The notes below the pieces were generated by a model. It was not told the DNA's origin. It made no database searches and was given only the letters and a program-made list of their open reading frames with translations. Made by a program: the position numbers and the translations under genes. Below are positions 19,468 to 28,549 of a stretch of 43,025 nucleotides of DNA, piece after piece; the first letter of the stretch is position 1; every line of letters starts with the position of its first letter. The DNA lies in NCBI GenBank assembly GCA_022449345.1, contig JAKURL010000015.1:1-43025 (forward strand), given 5' to 3'. The stretch comes from Candidatus Thalassarchaeum sp. (GTDB lineage: Archaea > Thermoplasmatota > Poseidoniia > Poseidoniales > Thalassarchaeaceae).

Positions 19468-19541
19468 GGGCCTGTAGCTTAGTCAGGTAGAGCGCCGGGC
19501 TTTTAACCCGGTGGCCGGGGGTTCGAATCCCTCCAGGCCCG
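19468..19541 (+). tRNA. tRNA-Lys (anticodon TTT)
   Basis: A 74-base cloverleaf. The acceptor GGGCCTG pairs with CAGGCCC and is followed by discriminator G. The D arm is GCTTAGTCAGGTAGAGC. The anticodon stem CCGGG/CCCGG encloses CTTTTAA, so the anticodon is TTT. The T arm contains GGTTCGAATCC. There is no intron, and the 3' CCA is not encoded. It lies 49 bases before rpoH on the same strand. Confidence 0.95.
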
Positions 19542-19590
19542 CCTGACAAAGCCTCAGGCACGCGGTTTTCTGGGTTTGGGGGCGGCGTAA

Positions 19591-20178
19591 ATGGCAGTGA
19601 AGAGTTCAACCAAAAAACGTCTAATCGAGTTGGGCATCGATGCGGAACATGCTCACAAACTCGCTGACGACGCAAACATGGATGCAATCAAACGAATGAC
19701 CGTTGAGGAGGTTTCGGAAAAGACTGGTGTGGCAATGAGCGACGCTACCCTCGAGAATATCATGTCCATCATTAGGGAGCACAACACCTCCCGTCGACGC
19801 AGTCGTTCAGGGCGAATCACTATTTCTCGCAAAGCCTTGGAACTCGACGACATTCCTCAAGGCGATTATCGCTTCAATGTCCTAAATCACCTTCTTGTCC
19901 CCCATCACGAATTGGTTGACCCAGAGGACGAATCAGCCGTTCTATCTCATTGGGGTCTGGAGACTCCTGTCAATGATGGAGGCGTTCGAATCGCCAAGGA
20001 ATTATTGCCAAAGATTTTGATTACAGATCCTGCAGTTCAGGCCCTCAAAGAACAGGTTGAGGCTGAAGCCGATGATCTTCCAGCCGGATGGCTAGCTAAC
20101 AGGGTAGTTCGTGTGGTTCGATATAGCCGAGTTGCTGGTTCCAGTACCGCATTCAGACTAATCGTGGAGAGCGCTTGA
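19591..20178 (+). CDS. rpoH: RNA polymerase subunit H with an added N-terminal domain
   Basis: The archaeal homologue of the Rpb5 C-terminal domain, part of the downstream jaw of RNA polymerase. The 195-residue protein is more than twice the usual length of about 80. Residues about 90-195 are the RpoH core ([47 protein letters not shown]) with a small insertion. Residues 1-65 form an extra helical domain, followed by an Arg/Ser-rich linker. That domain matches the N terminus of RpoA'' (26972) at 22 of the first 40 residues and has a helix-hairpin-helix-like pattern. A GGGGGCGG ribosome binding site precedes the ATG. It is the first protein gene of the polymerase operon. Confidence 0.9.
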
Positions 20179-20190
20179 GGAGTTGAAAGT

Positions 20191-21996
20191 ATGAAGGAAA
20201 TTGTAGAGAGTTATTTTCAACAAAGAAGCCTAGTTAACCACCAACTAGCCTCCTATAACGACTGTATACCATCAACAGATGGCAAACTAAGTCGAATGGA
20301 GAAAATCGTTCGCAACATCCGCATCGGAACCGACGAACCAATCGAGGACGATGATGGTGGAATAATCAAACTCGACGTTCTCGACCATGAGATTGTCATC
20401 AGAATGAAGAATATTCATCTTGGCCGCCCGACAATCCGTGAAGCCAACGGTGCTGAGCACCCTGGAACTCCACTGGAATGCAGGCTTCGTAAGTTGACCT
20501 ACTACTCACCAGTTCACCTAGATTTCCAGATCATCCGGGACGACAAGCCAACCCCAGATGTCGAGGAGAGAGTTCACATCGGAAATCTACCAATCATGGT
20601 TCGCTCAGCCCAGTGTAACCTTCACGCAAACCACATTTCACATCTATGCGGTGACGCAGACAGGAAACTATCACCTCAGACTTCCACAGAGGATGCAGAC
20701 AGACTAACAGAGTTGCTTCGCAGAGCGGGAGAGGACCCACTCGATCCAGGTGGCTACTTCATCATCAACGGTACAGAGCGCGTGCTAATCTCAATGGAAG
20801 ACTTGGCACCTAACCGTGTAACAGTTGAGAAGAACAAGAAGTACGCTCACGAGACCGAAGTCGCTAAGATTTTCTCTCAGAAGGATGGTGTACGAAAGCC
20901 ATTGAACATCGAAAAGCGCCGAGATGGAATGCTGATGGTCAAGATTCCAAGTGCTGGAACAACTCCTATCCCAGTCGTACTGCTAATGCGTTCACTCGGC
21001 ATGGAGAATGACAAGGAGATTTTCACAGCGATTGCTGGCCCTGCTGAAGCGATGAAGTATACCGTCGCTAACCTTAACGATGTCAAAGACAACGAGGAAT
21101 ACAACGTTGAAACATCCGAGGAAGCCCTACAGTGGCTGGAGAAGAAGTTCGCAGCAGGTCAGCAGAAAGAATACCGTGAGGCACGAATTCAGAACTTGCT
21201 CGATAAGGAGTTGTTACCTCACTTGGGTTCAATTCCTGAAAACCGAGAAAAGAAGGCTATCTTCCTCGGTCGAATCGTTCGTCAAGTCCTCGAGATGGCG
21301 ATTACAGACATGGACCCTAACGACAAAGACCACTATGCAAACAAGAGGGTCAGACTAGCCGGAGACTTGGTTGAGGACTTGTTCCGAGTAAGTCTTCAGC
21401 AACTTGCTCGAGACCTGAAGTACCAACTCGAGCGCCACCACAACAGAAAGCGCGAACTTCGCATCAATGCCTGTCTGCGCCCAGATGTTCTGACTCAGAA
21501 GATCATGCACGCTCTTGCAACAGGAAATTGGGTTGGCGGGCGCAGTGGTGTTAGCCAACTGCTTGATCGAACTACATACTTGGCTGCTCTATCCCACATG
21601 CGCCGAGTAACCAGCCCTCTAGTTCGAAGTCAACCACACTTTGAGGCTCGTGACCTACACCCAACTCAGTGGGGTAGGCTTTGTCCAAACGAAACCCCTG
21701 AAGGCCAAAACTGCGGTTTGGTAAAGAATGCGGCACAGATGATTGACGTCTCGGAGGAAGTCAATGAGCACGATGTCAAGGAACTTCTTGGCGAGGCTGG
21801 GGTCGATTCCTCTCCTTCTGGTTGGGCATCGGGGTTCAGAGTGCACGTAAATGGAGATATTTTCGGCTTGCATAAGAATGCGTCAAAGTTAGTCAACCAA
21901 TTCAAACGTCGTCGTAGACAAGGTCGAATTCGATCAGAGGTAAGCATCCGTTTCGACGGTGCAAACAGAGACATTTTCATCAATACCGACAGATGA
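20191..21996 (+). CDS. rpoB: RNA polymerase subunit B, N-terminal part (B''-like), ends at an in-frame TGA
   Basis: Encodes the first 601 residues of the archaeal B subunit (protrusion, lobe, start of the fork). It includes DPGGYFIINGTERVLISMEDLAPN, RRVTSPLVRSQPHFEARDLHPTQWGRLCPNETPEGQNCGL in the fork region (in parts), and ends FINTDR. A GAGGAG site precedes the ATG. The next in-frame codon after Arg601 is TGA. Reading on in the same frame gives RILRPLLVLEDGD, the continuation of the conserved T-D-x-G-R-x2-R-P-L motif of an undivided B subunit. The break therefore falls inside a conserved motif, not at a clean domain border. It may be a true split, a readthrough site or a sequence error; see findings. 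Confidence 0.9.
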   Translation: MKEIVESYFQQRSLVNHQLASYNDCIPSTDGKLSRMEKIVRNIRIGTDEPIEDDDGGIIKLDVLDHEIVIRMKNIHLGRPTIREANGAEHPGTPLECRLRKLTYYSPVHLDFQIIRDDKPTPDVEERVHIGNLPIMVRSAQCNLHANHISHLCGDADRKLSPQTSTEDADRLTELLRRAGEDPLDPGGYFIINGTERVLISMEDLAPNRVTVEKNKKYAHETEVAKIFSQKDGVRKPLNIEKRRDGMLMVKIPSAGTTPIPVVLLMRSLGMENDKEIFTAIAGPAEAMKYTVANLNDVKDNEEYNVETSEEALQWLEKKFAAGQQKEYREARIQNLLDKELLPHLGSIPENREKKAIFLGRIVRQVLEMAITDMDPNDKDHYANKRVRLAGDLVEDLFRVSLQQLARDLKYQLERHHNRKRELRINACLRPDVLTQKIMHALATGNWVGGRSGVSQLLDRTTYLAALSHMRRVTSPLVRSQPHFEARDLHPTQWGRLCPNETPEGQNCGLVKNAAQMIDVSEEVNEHDVKELLGEAGVDSSPSGWASGFRVHVNGDIFGLHKNASKLVNQFKRRRRQGRIRSEVSIRFDGANRDIFINTDR

Positions 21997-22014
21997 CGAA
22001 TTCTACGACCACTA

Positions 22015-23877
22015 TTGGTCCTAGAAGACGGAGATTTGGTACTATCGAAGGACCATCTTGAAGCGATTAAATCCGGCGAATGGACCTTCGCAGACCTAGT
22101 CACGAATGGCGTGGTAGAATGGGTCGATGCAGAAGAGGAGGAAGACCTCCTAATTGCACCACGTCCATTCGACCTTCCAATGGTTTCCCCTAAGCACGGC
22201 CGACCAATCAACCCAGACGCTGTGGAATGGGTTAACCTTGGAGAATCACAGGTCAAGAAGGCCAAGTTGAGAGTTGAAGTCAAGATGCCAAATGGAGATG
22301 TTGAGGTTGAGAATTTCAGTGTCCCTCTGAACTACTACCAAGAGGACCTAGACAGTATTCAACGAAAGCAGAAGAGACAAAACACAGTACTCGCATACAC
22401 TCACGTCGAGATTGACCCACAATTAATCCTCGGCGTTTGTGCTTCTCTTGTTCCATACCCAGAGCATAACTCCACACCGAGAGTTACCGGTGGTACAGCC
22501 ATGGTCAAGCAAAGTCTCGGCCTTCCTAGTGCAAACTATCGCCTAAGACCAGACACACGAATGCACGTAATGCATTACCCACAGCAATCGATTGTAGGAA
22601 CTCGTTCGATGAAGACCACTAACTTTGCACAAAGACCCGGTGGCCAGAACTTCGTAGTGGCGATTCTAAGCCATCACGGATACAATATGCAAGACGCTGT
22701 TGTGATGAACCGTGCGGCTGTAGAGCGGTCACTTGCGCGTTCATCGTTCATCCGCACCTACAATGCTGAGAACAAACAGTTTCCAGGTGGGCAGAAAGAG
22801 CAGATCGAGATCCCAGGAACCGGACTTGATGAAGTAAAGGGTTTGAAGTCGTGGGAGAGTTATACCCACCTTGAAAGAGATGGGTTGCCAACCCCGGAAA
22901 CTCATCTATCAAGTGTTGGTGCTGAGACCGGAGTTCTAGTCGGAAAGACAAGCCCACCTAGATTCCTTGAAGAGTCTCATGGACACTTCCTACAAGCTCA
23001 GGAACGCCGAGAGTCTTCAATGATGGTTCGTAATGGCGAATCAGGATGGGTGGACAATGTCTACGTAACTGAGTCTCTAGATTCAGGTCTACTTTGTCGA
23101 ATCACACTGAGAACCGAAAAGATTCCGGAACTAGGTGACAAGTTCGCAAGTCGACACGGCCAGAAGGGCGTAATCGGTCGACTTGTAGACGAGAAGGATA
23201 TGCCGTTCACAGTTGACGGAATCGTACCTGACTTAATCATCAATCCACACGCGATTCCATCCAGAATGACTGTCGCTCACGTTCTGGAAATGATTGGTGG
23301 AAAGGTTGGATCAATGGAAGGACGTAAAATAGATGGTACTGCATTTAGCGGTGAGAAGGAAGACTCTCTCCGTTCAGGGCTTCTTCGAAATGGATTCGCT
23401 CATACCGGCCGTGAACCGATGATTAGCGGTGAGACCGGAGAAGCATTCCATGCCGATATATTCACTGGAGTTATCTTCTATCAGAGACTACACCACTTAG
23501 TCAGCAGCAAACTACACGCACGTAGTCGTGGTCGTGTGCAGATTTTGACTCGCCAACCAACCGAAGGCCGTGCTAGACAAGGTGTTCTTCGATTTGGAGA
23601 AATGGAGAGAGATTGTCTGATTGCTCACGGTGCTTCTATGGTCATCAAGGATAGACTACTAGACGAGTCTGATGGTTGGCCACTGATGGTTTGTAACAAC
23701 AGTGGCTGCGGACACATCGCATATTACGATTGGAAGAGAAGAACACCGGTTTGTCCAGTCTGTGGAGATCGCGCAGACGTACACTCGGTACAAACCTCAT
23801 ACGCATTCAAGTTGCTTCTAGACGAAATGAAGAGTCTTGGAGTGGCCATGCGCCTTGAACTGGAGGACCGAAGATGA
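22015..23877 (+). CDS. rpoB: RNA polymerase subunit B, C-terminal part (B'-like)
   Basis: Encodes the catalytic half of B (620 residues from the first possible start, TTG at 22015). It includes the hybrid-binding and wall regions, with HHGYNMQDAVVMNRAA, GDKFASRHGQKGVIG, RSRGRVQILTRQPTEGRAR, and a C-terminal zinc site (CNNSGCGH and CPVCGD). It is in the same frame as the preceding piece. Only 18 bases lie between the TGA and the TTG, and no ribosome binding site is visible. Separate initiation is therefore poorly supported. It overlaps rpoA' by four bases (ATGA). Confidence 0.88.
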   Translation: MVLEDGDLVLSKDHLEAIKSGEWTFADLVTNGVVEWVDAEEEEDLLIAPRPFDLPMVSPKHGRPINPDAVEWVNLGESQVKKAKLRVEVKMPNGDVEVENFSVPLNYYQEDLDSIQRKQKRQNTVLAYTHVEIDPQLILGVCASLVPYPEHNSTPRVTGGTAMVKQSLGLPSANYRLRPDTRMHVMHYPQQSIVGTRSMKTTNFAQRPGGQNFVVAILSHHGYNMQDAVVMNRAAVERSLARSSFIRTYNAENKQFPGGQKEQIEIPGTGLDEVKGLKSWESYTHLERDGLPTPETHLSSVGAETGVLVGKTSPPRFLEESHGHFLQAQERRESSMMVRNGESGWVDNVYVTESLDSGLLCRITLRTEKIPELGDKFASRHGQKGVIGRLVDEKDMPFTVDGIVPDLIINPHAIPSRMTVAHVLEMIGGKVGSMEGRKIDGTAFSGEKEDSLRSGLLRNGFAHTGREPMISGETGEAFHADIFTGVIFYQRLHHLVSSKLHARSRGRVQILTRQPTEGRARQGVLRFGEMERDCLIAHGASMVIKDRLLDESDGWPLMVCNNSGCGHIAYYDWKRRTPVCPVCGDRADVHSVQTSYAFKLLLDEMKSLGVAMRLELEDRR

Positions 23878-26800
23878 GTGCCCGTGGAGTAGCAAAAATC
23901 CCTAAGAGGATTGATTCGATTAAGTTCAGTCTAATGGATCCAAATGAGATCCGAAAAATGTCGGCTGTGGAAGTTAAGACTGCTGATACCTACAAGGATG
24001 ATGGACATGCCTACAAGCAGGGACTTATGGACCCTAAAATGGGTGTTATCGACCCTGGGATTCGTTGTGAAACCTGTGGAAACAAACACGATGAGTGCCC
24101 AAGCCATTTCGGTCACATTGCACTTGAACTTCCAGTAATGCACATCGGATTTACTGCCTTGATTAAGACCTCTCTAAAGTCGACTTGTAACGACTGCAGC
24201 CACATCCTACTGCACAGTGCAACCGACACCCACCCTCTAGATCCTGAGAAGTCGGAGCAGGATTATTACCGAGACCGTGTAAACGATGTAATGCGAAAGC
24301 ACGGAGTGGGTTCAACCGAATTCAAGAAGATTATCAAGGAAATCGAGAAGGAGTGTTCCAGCGCTAAGCGTGCAATCTGTATGCACTGCGGTTCAGAACA
24401 AGGAAAGATTTTGCTTGATAAACCAACCACATTCAAGGAGAAGAAAGCCGACAAGGGTGAGCATAAGATCAACGCTCGAGATATCCGAGAATGGCTGGAA
24501 AAGATACCTGATCAACATCTACTTTTCCTCGGTATGGACAGCGTTTCAAGCCGACCTGAATGGTCAATCATGAAGGTTCTTCCAGTACCTCCCATTACCG
24601 TTCGCCCGTCAATTACTCTAGATAGCGGTGACCGTTCAGAAGATGACTTAACTCACAAGCTTGTTGACGTTCTTAGAATTAACCAGCGGCTGCGAGAAAA
24701 TCGTGACGCTGGAGCCCCGCAACTGATTGTCGAAGACCTTTGGGAGTTGTTGCAATACCACGTAACGACATATTTCGATAACCAAACTAGTGGCATTCCA
24801 CCTGCAAGACATCGCTCTGGAAGGCCTTTGAAGACTCTATCACAGCGTCTGAAGGGCAAGGAAGGAAGATTCCGAAGCAACCTATCCGGAAAGCGAGTTA
24901 ACTTCTGTGCTCGAACTGTAATCAGCCCAGATCCAAATCTAGGAATCAATGAGGTTGGCGTACCTGTTCAAACAGCTAAAGAATTGACAGTACCAATCCG
25001 TTCTACTAGCAGGAACAGAGAACAGTTGCGCAGAATGATTCTGCGTGGACCGGATGTTCACCCTGGCGTAAATTACATCATTCGTGGTGATAGCTTCCGT
25101 GTACGAATTACTGATCGAACCAAGTACATCTGGGCTGGATTCCGCTGCCTAAATGTCGATTGTCACTCAGGTGGCGATGATGAGCCTTACGCAGGTTACC
25201 GTCCTGATCTCAACACAGTACTTCCTGCACCTAACTTCCTACCTGGCCTTGAGTTGAAGAAGCAGATGCGTAGAAGTGAGTTTGGAGACCTAGAAGATGT
25301 TTGGTCTGTTGACCTTGAGACCACCATATCCAACCTAAGAGGTGAAGACGAAAATGGTCGACCACTCACTCAGGATGACCCTCGCGCCATTATCCATAAT
25401 CGATGGGTATGGGAACAGAACAACCCTGACGAATACCTGCCTGAACATCTGGAAGTTAACTGCCCACATTGTGGCAGTCCTTCTGTAGAAGACGAATATG
25501 GTGAGATTTACCGAACTGAGGTCGAGGACCGTCTATCGGTCTATGATAGAGATGGCAACCCTCGCCCCGGCGTTATTGTAGAGAGACATCTAATTGATGG
25601 AGATGTTGCTATCTTCAACCGACAACCTTCACTTCACAGAATGTCAATGCTAGTGCACGAAGTTCGTGTAATGCCTGGTAAGACCTTCCGCTTCAACTTA
25701 GCAGATTGTACACCCTACAACGCTGACTTCGACGGTGATGAGATGAATCTTCACGTCATTCAATCAGAGGAAGCAAGGGCAGAAGCGAAGATTTTGATGA
25801 GAGTTCAGGAACATATCATTACACCGAGATACGGGGGTGCCGTAATCGGTGGAATTCACGACCACATTTCTGGTGCCTACCTCCTAACTCATGGAGAGAG
25901 AGTTATACCAAAGGAATTGGCCATGGAAGTTCTAGGGTCTGTAGGTTGGGATGGCGATATGCCCGAGGAAATAAACACCAAGGATGGGGTTGTAGGATAC
26001 AGAGGTTCAGATCTTCTCAGTCTAATCGTTCCTGCAGGATTCAAACTTAACTACACAAGTAGAAGTGGGGATGAAGTCAATGTTACTTCAAATGGACTTG
26101 TTAGTGGTACGATTGACAAACGTGGAATCGGTGCTGAGGACGGCAGATTACTAGATGCGGTAGTTCAGACCCATGGCACAGATCGTGGTGCAGAGTTCCT
26201 CAATCGCATGACAAAGATGACAATTGCAATTTGTACATCACTGGGTTTCACTACCGGAATCGATGACGAAGACCTACCTCTCTCTGCGATAAAAGAAATC
26301 TCTGAAATCAATGCTCGTGCTAGTGATGAGGTAGATGCTGAACTGGCCAAGTTCGGCAAAAATGGACGAGGCTACGAGACGCGGCCAGGAAGAACACCAC
26401 TGGAGACTCTTGAGGAGAATATCCTACAGATTCTAGACTCAGCAAAAGCAGAATCGGGTAATGTAGCAAAGTCCTACCTAGGAGAGGATAACTCGGCCGT
26501 TATTATGGCAACCTCTGGAGCTCGTGGTTCTATGGACAACCTAGCCATGATGGCAGGTTCAATAGGTCAACCAAAGGTGCGTGGAAAGCGTCTAGAGCGT
26601 GGATACCAAGACCGAGTACTTTCTCACTTCCCTCGTGGAGTAAAGGGTGCCGAAGAAAAGGGATTCGTTTCTTCATCATTCAAGCAGGGACTTGAGCCGA
26701 CTGAGTTCTTCATGCTGTCAGTCTCGGGTCGAGAGTCTCTGGTTGATACAGCGGTTCGTACCTCTAAGTCCGGATACATGCAACGACGTCTAATTAACGC

Positions 26801-26972
26801 TATGGACGACCTCAAGGTATCAGAAGATGAAAACGGTTCAGTCCGTAATACTGCTAATAGGATAATCCAATTTGAGTATGGTGAGGATGGAATCGATCCT
26901 GCAAGAAGCCGCAAAGGTCTACCATTTGATATTACCAAGGTTCTCGACGATGCTCTTGGAGGTGATGAGTAA
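23874..26972 (+). CDS. RNA polymerase subunit A' (with an unusual insertion)
   Basis: Large catalytic subunit carrying the active-site Mg2+ loop [10 protein letters not shown] at about residues 616-625 (Asp618, 620, 622). N-terminal zinc ligands are seen in [17 protein letters not shown] and in the clamp CNDCSH and CMHCGSE pairs. The product is 1032 residues, longer than the roughly 880-910 typical of archaeal A'. Much of the excess is a segment at about residues 417-545, between the [10 protein letters not shown] region and [24 protein letters not shown], where other A' subunits are short. This segment contains C-x4-C (CLNVDC) and C-x2-C (CPHC), suggesting a zinc ribbon. It overlaps rpoB by four bases and rpoA'' by one. 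Confidence 0.93.
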
Positions 26973-28549
26973 TGGTAGTCAAGAGTGCAACCAAGAAGAA
27001 GCTCATGGATCTTGGAATCGCTGAGGAATTCGCTCACCGACTTGCGGACGATCGTAAGTGGGATGATGTGAAGGTACTCACTGCTGGAGAGATTGCCCAA
27101 ATTTGTGCAACAGATTCAGGACAGGCGCAAAAAATATCTGAGGTCATACAGGGTTCTACTAAAGCCGCACAGAAACAGAAAGCCGCCGAAAAGACACTGA
27201 TTCGCCGCCGAGTAGCTACTAGACGCAGGAAGAAGAGCGTTCTTCCATTGCAAGAGTACGATTCGGAAGACAAGATGCGTCAAATTCATCGTGACATGGA
27301 CATTGAGAACCCAATGTTCTCTAGCCTTTCGGATGCAGCAGCAAAGGAGAATATGCGAATTACACCTAAGACAATCAACGACCTAGTTAATGGATTGCTT
27401 TCTAGAGGAAAGAAGAAATTGACAGCCGCAGAGGCGCGTAAGGTAGTGACCTGCGCCACTGCAGATATGGCAATGGCTCGTGTAGATCCACACGAGGCAG
27501 TAGGAATCACCACCGCACAATCGATAGGAGAACCAGGTACTCAGATGACTATGAGAACTTTCCACTATGCGGGTGTAGCTACCGTTAACGTAACACAAGG
27601 TCTCCCTCGTGTAATCGAAATCGTAGATGCTAGAAAGGTTCCAAAAACTCCTACAATGAAGATTTACCTAGATGAGAATGACGCAAAAGGGAAGCCATTA
27701 CGAACCAATGAGAAGAAGGTTCAGGCAATCGCTGCGGCTATTGAAACAACTACGACTCGAGATATTGCTTCTATCGATGTTGACGTTGCACAAAGACACC
27801 TCAATCTGGATCTTAAAGCCTCAAACTTGCGTTTGAAGAAGATGACAGGAGCAGAGGTCCGAGATAAACTGCAAAGAGCCCTTCGTCTGTATATTCAGGC
27901 AGATGATGACAACCGACCCAAGGTCCTCAAAGTAATCCCAGGCGTTACTAAGGAGGTTGATTTGGCACAATTGGCTAACGATCCACCTACATACACCGCA
28001 TTGCTGCAACTTGAGGACAAGGTCAAGAAACTAAGGTTGAAGGGACTGCCTGATATAGTTAGAGCAAACGTTCAGGGTCCAAACAAGGAAACCGGCGAAT
28101 ATTACATTGCAACTATCGGTTCAAATCTCTCTAAGGTCAGTATGTTCGATGGAATTGACCGTGGTCGAACCTACACAAATAACATCAATGAAATCTACCA
28201 ATACCTTGGTGTTGAAGCGGCTAGACAAGCAATTATCAATGAGATGAAGGATACTCTGGAAGGTGCAGGATTGGATGTAGACACCAGACACCTGCTAACA
28301 GTCGCAGATGTAATGACTAGCGAAGGTGAAGTTCGAGCTATTGGACGACATGGAGTCAGCGGAACCAAGCACAGTATTTTGGCGAGGTCCGCTTTCGAAG
28401 TATCTGTAAATCATCTATTGAGAGCAGGTATTATCGGAGAAAGAGATCACTTGCGAGGTGTTACTGAAAATATTATCGTCGGACAGCCTGTTGCTCTAGG
28501 AACAGGTAGTGTCGAATTGTTCTACATCCCAGAAGAGACCGGTGCTTGA
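26972..28549 (+). CDS. RNA polymerase subunit A'' with an added N-terminal domain
   Basis: C-terminal part of the largest subunit, with the trigger-loop region [39 protein letters not shown], and the final [25 protein letters not shown] and [13 protein letters not shown] blocks. At 525 residues it is well over 100 longer than typical A''. Residues 1-60 are homologous to the N terminus of RpoH in this operon (22 of 40 identical), and a Lys/Arg-rich linker (about 60-95) leads to the normal subunit. ATG overlaps the A' stop as TAATG, so translation is coupled and the start is secure. Confidence 0.93.

Follow-up and report, generated by a model that had tools for sequence, protein, structure and literature searches.

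Why do two subunits of one archaeal RNA polymerase begin with what appears to be the same extra domain, where did that domain come from and what might it do? The stretch of DNA analysed here (the window, 43,025 nucleotides from Candidatus Thalassarchaeum sp.) encodes an RNA polymerase operon with rpoH, rpoB, rpoA' and rpoA'' on the same (+) strand (Table 1). A sequence-only reading had claimed that the first 40 residues of RpoH and RpoA'' share 22 identities, that both subunits are longer than usual, and that they carry a domain, duplicated within the operon, that resembles DNA-binding helix-hairpin-helix (HhH) modules.

The similarity and the unusual lengths are borne out. The first 40 residues align with 22 identities and without gaps, and blastp aligns the two proteins over 78 columns with E=8e-11. 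The local alignment scores 115, which is 18 standard deviations above 20,000 shuffles, the maximum of which is 56. Strong similarity covers residues 1-46, and the copies are offset by a two-residue gap near residue 51. Solved archaeal A'' chains (391-397 aa) align to residues 122-518 only of the A'' protein, and solved Rpo5 chains align to RpoH only from about residue 91. Full-length relatives of this RpoH are present in Poseidoniales. Chance similarity is ruled out by the shuffles, by conservation in relatives and by the purifying selection described below. The alignments indicate that the N-terminal domains of RpoH and A'', about 60 residues each, are homologous.

Table 1. Features of the RNA polymerase operon and its two N-terminal domains in the window.
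Feature	Position	Strand	Remarks
tRNA-Lys	19468-19543		ahead of rpoH
rpoH (Rpo5)	19591-20178	+	195 aa with extra N-terminal domain; Pfam Rpb5_C at residues 95-191, E=6e-13
RpoH copy, (HhH)2-like domain	19591-19785	+	residues 1-65; predicted helices 6-13, 18-25, 30-34, 38-45, 52-68
RpoH linker	19786-19869	+	predicted to be disordered; basic (SRRRSRSGR) in its first part
RpoH assembly domain (Rpb5 C-terminal domain)	19870-20175	+	from Foldseek against archaeal Rpo5 and alignments
rpoB region between both copies	20191-23877	+	two ORFs, 20191-21996 and 22015-23877
rpoA' (Rpo1N)	23874-26972	+	directly upstream of rpoA''; Pfam Rpb1_1 to Rpb1_5
rpoA'' (Rpo1C)	26972-28549	+	525 aa; NCBIfam RNA_pol_rpoA2 at residues 134-517, 1.2e-124
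A'' copy, (HhH)2-like domain	26972-27160	+	residues 1-63; predicted helices 5-14, 18-24, 30-34, 38-45, 49-65
A'' linker	27161-27256	+	strongly basic

The AlphaFold prediction for the A'' copy, made with 50 homologues (pLDDT 85), places five helices in the order of a tandem (HhH)2 domain. In the model of the full RpoH its own copy has the same helix order, followed by a disordered basic linker (pLDDT is below 50 in most of residues 68-99) and then the usual assembly domain. When the domain was compared with known structures using Foldseek, FANCM-FAAP24 supplied three of the top four chains, in structures with and without DNA (probability 0.98-1.00, TM-score 0.71-0.73, rmsd 1.5-2.4 Å, identity 15-18%). 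NusA and RadA are among the best matches, and SAM domains are also among the fold matches. The E-values for FANCM-FAAP24 are 0.09 to 0.7 and none of the domain's matches reaches 0.001, values that, for so small a domain, carry no significance by themselves. An independent sequence profile, of the domain and its A'' relatives, matches the HhH region of Topoisomerase V (8e-5) and RadA (0.03), and this agreement supports the Foldseek assignment. Pfam HhH families gave no match to the Poseidoniales domain; a third copy in the genome, described below, matches HHH_5 at 0.0015, under the cut-off. A match between a narrow alignment of the domain and a PDB profile of the CAP repeat was discarded as it rests on a repeated 17-residue stretch. 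The models support an HhH-like fold with the tandem (HhH)2 order of helices.

Helix order and fold are thus those of FANCM-FAAP24, of the XPF family, and of the RadA/Rad51 N-termini, and FANCM-FAAP24 also consists of paired paralogous (HhH)2 domains (PMC3905867). The Poseidoniales domain differs from both in that the G-h-G hairpins are not kept and in being part of an RNA polymerase. In canonical HhH modules the glycines of these hairpins contact DNA. Here hairpin 1 reads L-G-[IV]-x and hairpin 2 lacks G-h-G in both copies; with its hairpins so degenerate the domain is not counted among the canonical DNA-binding HhH modules. Its own net charge is slightly negative (about -1 to -2), whereas the linkers are strongly basic: the A'' linker carries a net charge of +10 in the window and +6 to +11 in 20 relatives, and residues 63-82 of RpoH carry +4 to +8 among the 12 relatives listed. 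The earlier proposal of a DNA-binding HhH module therefore stands as regards the fold but not as regards the hairpin glycines or the charge of the domain.

Two known additions to RNA polymerase invite comparison. The N-terminal jaw of Rpb5 is likewise an extra N-terminal domain on the same subunit, on the downstream-DNA side, but at about 140 residues it is larger than the 65-residue RpoH copy and has no sequence or fold similarity to it. Rpb5 is absent from the 50 best Foldseek matches of the domain. Close superpositions of the RpoH model on Rpb5 (rmsd about 3 Å) comprise some 96 columns, which fits the Rpb5 C-terminal domain, and the RpoH assembly domain matches archaeal Rpo5 chains with TM-scores, by target, of 0.73-0.78. 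Identity with the jaw fold was rejected since the model is close to Rpb5 only over the assembly domain. The second is Rpo13 of the Sulfolobales, a lineage-specific small helical element located at Rpo5 near downstream DNA (PMC2675907). Rpo13 is a separate subunit with a helix-turn-helix, whereas the Poseidoniales domain is fused to RpoH and A''. Given this fusion, and with no Rpo13 found among the sequence matches or the listed fold matches of the domain, that identification was also rejected.

Where on the enzyme would the two copies lie? The segment of Rpb1 that precedes the QSIGEP motif is the foot (residues about 871-1058), the eukaryotic Rpb5 N-terminus is the lower jaw, and foot and jaw are both part of the shelf. 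The A'' copy would take the place of the foot and the RpoH copy that of the jaw, so that both would belong to the shelf beneath downstream DNA. RpoH is proximal to this DNA and matters for open-complex formation (PMC6690254), and its copy probably adjoins the incoming duplex. A further guide is the helical domain (an HMG box, dock II) that human Pol I carries as an insertion in the foot of its largest subunit and that sits on the downstream face of Rpb5 (PMC9438803). Its fold is unrelated to that of the Poseidoniales domain and it has no copy on Rpb5, but its position on Rpb5 indicates that modules at the foot and at the Rpb5 N-terminus can touch.

The most likely role, to which we assign a probability of roughly 0.5, is that of a lineage-specific auxiliary clamp at the lower jaw and foot that holds downstream DNA or a partner beside the position of the Rpb5 jaw. 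The domains, on their basic and flexible linkers, would grip this DNA, and may also hold each other, while the open complex forms and during elongation. Such a clamp would have arisen independently of the Rpb5 jaw and of Sulfolobales Rpo13, as their counterpart. We infer each part of this scheme, the location (from homologous structures), the contact with DNA and the pairing of the copies. The basic linkers, the (HhH)2-like fold, and the homology and conservation of both copies support a clamp. Counting against it are the lost G-h-G hairpins, the acidic domain, the absence of a Pfam HhH match and the Foldseek E-values above 0.001, together with the nearest structural parallel at the foot, the HMG box of human Pol I, which no longer binds DNA. 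In FANCM-FAAP24 the two (HhH)2 domains associate as a pseudo-symmetric heterodimer (PMC3905867). That the two copies might pair across the shelf in similar fashion, to give a lower jaw that closes on DNA and arose independently of the Rpb5 jaw, is a doubtful extension of the clamp.

The same observations leave room for a possible, though less probable, function in which the domains themselves do not bind DNA. Both may offer the same surface, of which the almost invariant start VKS[AS]TKK[KR]L is part, to a single partner protein; candidates for this partner are a transcription factor, a chromatin protein and the leading ribosome. We rate such a docking platform next after the clamp on account of the degenerate hairpins and the human foot insertion, whose DNA binding is lost and which is believed to serve as a dock for proteins (PMC9438803). 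The slight acidity of the domain fits docking, as does the presence among the fold matches of SAM domains, which usually bind proteins, and the extreme N-terminus, part of the proposed surface, is the best-conserved part of both copies. Set against this, the strongly basic linkers follow directly behind both domains and the nearest fold matches are (HhH)2 domains of DNA repair. Nor was a partner found. The sole other genomic copy stands at the head of a 363-aa zinc-ribbon protein.

That third copy came from a search of the genome for further occurrences, for which Spt5, TFS and TopoVI had been suggested as places to look. None of these three carries the domain; the one match, a weak one, begins the zinc-ribbon protein, which adjoins ksgA (L084:1474-2565). 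It retains the older A'' form (MAKKDTYLALLRRGIDENTAQLLAD) and matches the A'' N-termini of other families with E-values of about 1e-5 to 1e-3. The zinc-ribbon protein occurs in nearly all sampled Poseidoniales and, as a whole protein, in no other family. It is possibly linked to the polymerase.

An unlikely third role is that of an aid to assembly, in which the domains bind each other and lock RpoH onto A'', offsetting a diverged RpoH core, with any DNA contact incidental. The host subunits do contact each other in known polymerases, the FANCM/FAAP24 heterodimer is an example of (HhH)2 domains that associate in this way (PMC3905867), and the Poseidoniales RpoH core is indeed diverged, bearing two insertions and matching Rpb5_C weakly. 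However, other archaea retain RpoH without such domains, and the conserved surfaces of the two copies are similar and not visibly complementary.

How well is the domain conserved? Among the sampled Poseidoniales (marine Group II) at least one copy is present in 62 genomes and both copies in 57 of these; in the five genomes with a single copy, one gene or its start is missing. Three genomes that might have counted as lacking the domain were set aside, as both the RpoH core and the A'' N-terminus are missing from them. Within the GTDB species set, 524 stretches encode a relative, and the 80 listed with informative names are all Candidatus Thalassarchaeaceae, Thalassarchaeum or Marine Group II. 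A common start, M[AV]VKS[AS]TKK[KR]L(x)2[LM]G[IV], is found with few exceptions in both proteins and in both Poseidoniales families.

Comparison of the RpoH domain of the window with its relatives gives pS of 0.47-0.93 and pN of 0-0.16, with dN/dS no greater than 0.07 where it is computable and not saturated. Both copies evolve under strong purifying selection. Within one genome the two copies often use different codons at shared residues: among the first 32 positions the codon is the same at 10 of the 19 shared residues, and 64 of 96 bases are identical. These differences rule out recent gene conversion between rpoH and rpoA'', identify the copies as old paralogues and indicate that their likeness is kept by selection on the protein.

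These data also bear on two further explanations. It is very improbable that the copies lack a common function, with the A'' domain as an old feature of the phylum and the RpoH copy as a neutral fusion that has persisted by chance. The A'' N-termini of the phylum do vary widely in domain content, which suggests that gain and loss are easy, but every sampled Poseidoniales genome with the relevant RpoH sequence has a copy, and nonsynonymous change is near zero against saturated synonymous change. Mis-called starts, with the true RpoH and A'' beginning further in and the similarity untranslated, are most improbable, for although some relatives have TTG or GTG at the same position, the start residue is the same in both Poseidoniales families, dN is near zero with dS saturated, and the start codon of rpoA'' overlaps the stop codon of rpoA'.

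Of the two subunits said not to carry such a domain as a rule, the claim is right for RpoH, but for A'' it fails within this phylum. The RpoH core was found in 118 of 126 Thermoplasmatota genomes and the domain only in those of Poseidoniales; in this set no RpoH of another lineage has it. The longer RpoH frames of one other family proved to contain unrelated low-complexity sequence. Occurrence of the RpoH domain throughout Archaea is thereby ruled out within the phylum. The A'' core is present in 121 of the 126 genomes, often in frames of 480-900 codons, and a profile built from ten A'' N-termini of other families finds a match at the beginning of A'' (E below 1e-7) in at least 35 of the 99 Thermoplasmatota genomes outside Poseidoniales. 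Several families share a recurrent N-terminal module, MA+xDT(h)xAL(x)+RG[IL](x)ETA(x)+LA. To this, canonical HhH pairs (IKGIGPSKAEAL), two or three in number, are added in five families and a separate beta domain in seven, while others have little or nothing.

The canonical pairs, with GIG hairpins, were seen before the A'' core at six loci, and would likely form a DNA-binding array on the RNA polymerase of these other Thermoplasmatota. The beta-rich domain (GVIWSLP...GVAFPIN...PFSGYVYLK) lies between the N-terminal module and the A'' core at nine loci, at one of which (L106) there are two copies.

Is the Poseidoniales domain kin to these A'' N-termini? It occupies the same position on A'' and shares the pattern [KS]xxTxxxLxxxGI....A..LA with them, but it is strongly diverged, with its VKSATKKKL start and degenerate hairpins, and is found on RpoH as well. 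The profile comparison with the ten A'' N-termini scores 34.0, where 200 column shuffles give 9.9 +/- 2.3 and reach at most 22.4. Taken by themselves, the RpoH rows score 38.1 and the A'' rows 24.2, the latter just above their own shuffle maximum of 23.4. At genome scale the best match of the domain outside the order is also an A'' N-terminus, with E=0.015, a value that leaves the kinship to rest on position and the profile comparison. Both place the domain with the Thermoplasmatota A'' N-terminal domains, and we take the position, at the N-terminus of A'', as independent support.

The tree unites the Poseidoniales H and A'' copies in a single clade (100/99) with a long stem, and the A'' copies are themselves a clade (100/100). 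The AU test (p 0.34) does not separate H from A'' as the older copy. The proposed duplication within one operon agrees with the tree, which dates it before the split of the two Poseidoniales families. On the simplest history, in which the direction of copying is inferred, the A'' copy would descend from the N-terminal HhH-type domain common to many Thermoplasmatota A'', and this domain of the phylum would have been duplicated onto the start of rpoH, at the opposite end of the operon, in the Poseidoniales ancestor, before Thalassarchaeaceae and the second family separated.

According to textbook accounts, archaeal RpoH corresponds to the Rpb5 C-terminal domain alone and lacks any extension at its N-terminus (PMC3906176, PMC6690254); Poseidoniales go unmentioned in a 2026 survey of the small subunits of archaeal polymerases (PMC13257274). 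Searches of the open full-text literature turned up no description of an N-terminal domain in archaeal RpoH or of HhH modules in archaeal A'', and no annotation of the Thermoplasmatota A'' N-terminal HhH-type domains was found. What appears new is the RpoH copy, a Poseidoniales-specific addition within the phylum, the A'' copy being an older feature of it. The accretion of a lineage-specific helical module on RNA polymerase is a known pattern; duplication between two subunits is unusual.

An order of very abundant ocean archaea thus has an RpoH N-terminal domain of its own, in common with the largest subunit, at a predicted location that matches the eukaryotic Rpb5 jaw and Sulfolobales Rpo13. 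Three separate lineages would then have added a module at the same downstream-DNA site, which makes a pressure for such a module testable. Across the phylum, the HhH and other modules that A'' carries at the place of the eukaryotic Rpb1 foot vary from family to family; this variety seems to be undescribed and is relevant to the way RNA polymerases acquire lineage-specific parts.

Other features of this polymerase deserve mention. In this assembly an in-frame TGA at 21994-21996 interrupts rpoB, which reads as ORFs of 601 and 620 aa; the interruption could be confused with the known B''/B' split. In ten relatives rpoB is one uninterrupted frame of 1206-1248 codons; the TGA reflects either an error in the consensus or a genuine difference in the strain. 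The RpoH core has two conserved insertions, near residues 121-136 (about 19951-19998) and 154-168 (about 20050-20094), the second with an invariant L-x-AGW motif, and these explain the weak Rpb5_C match in Poseidoniales. At about residues 419-555 of RpoA' (25128-25539) there is an insertion of some 135 residues with paired cysteines (C-x4-C, CPHC), which has no Pfam match above the cut-off. It is present in both Poseidoniales families and absent from the protein of another family with which it was compared (f29), and would be a second lineage-specific part of this polymerase.
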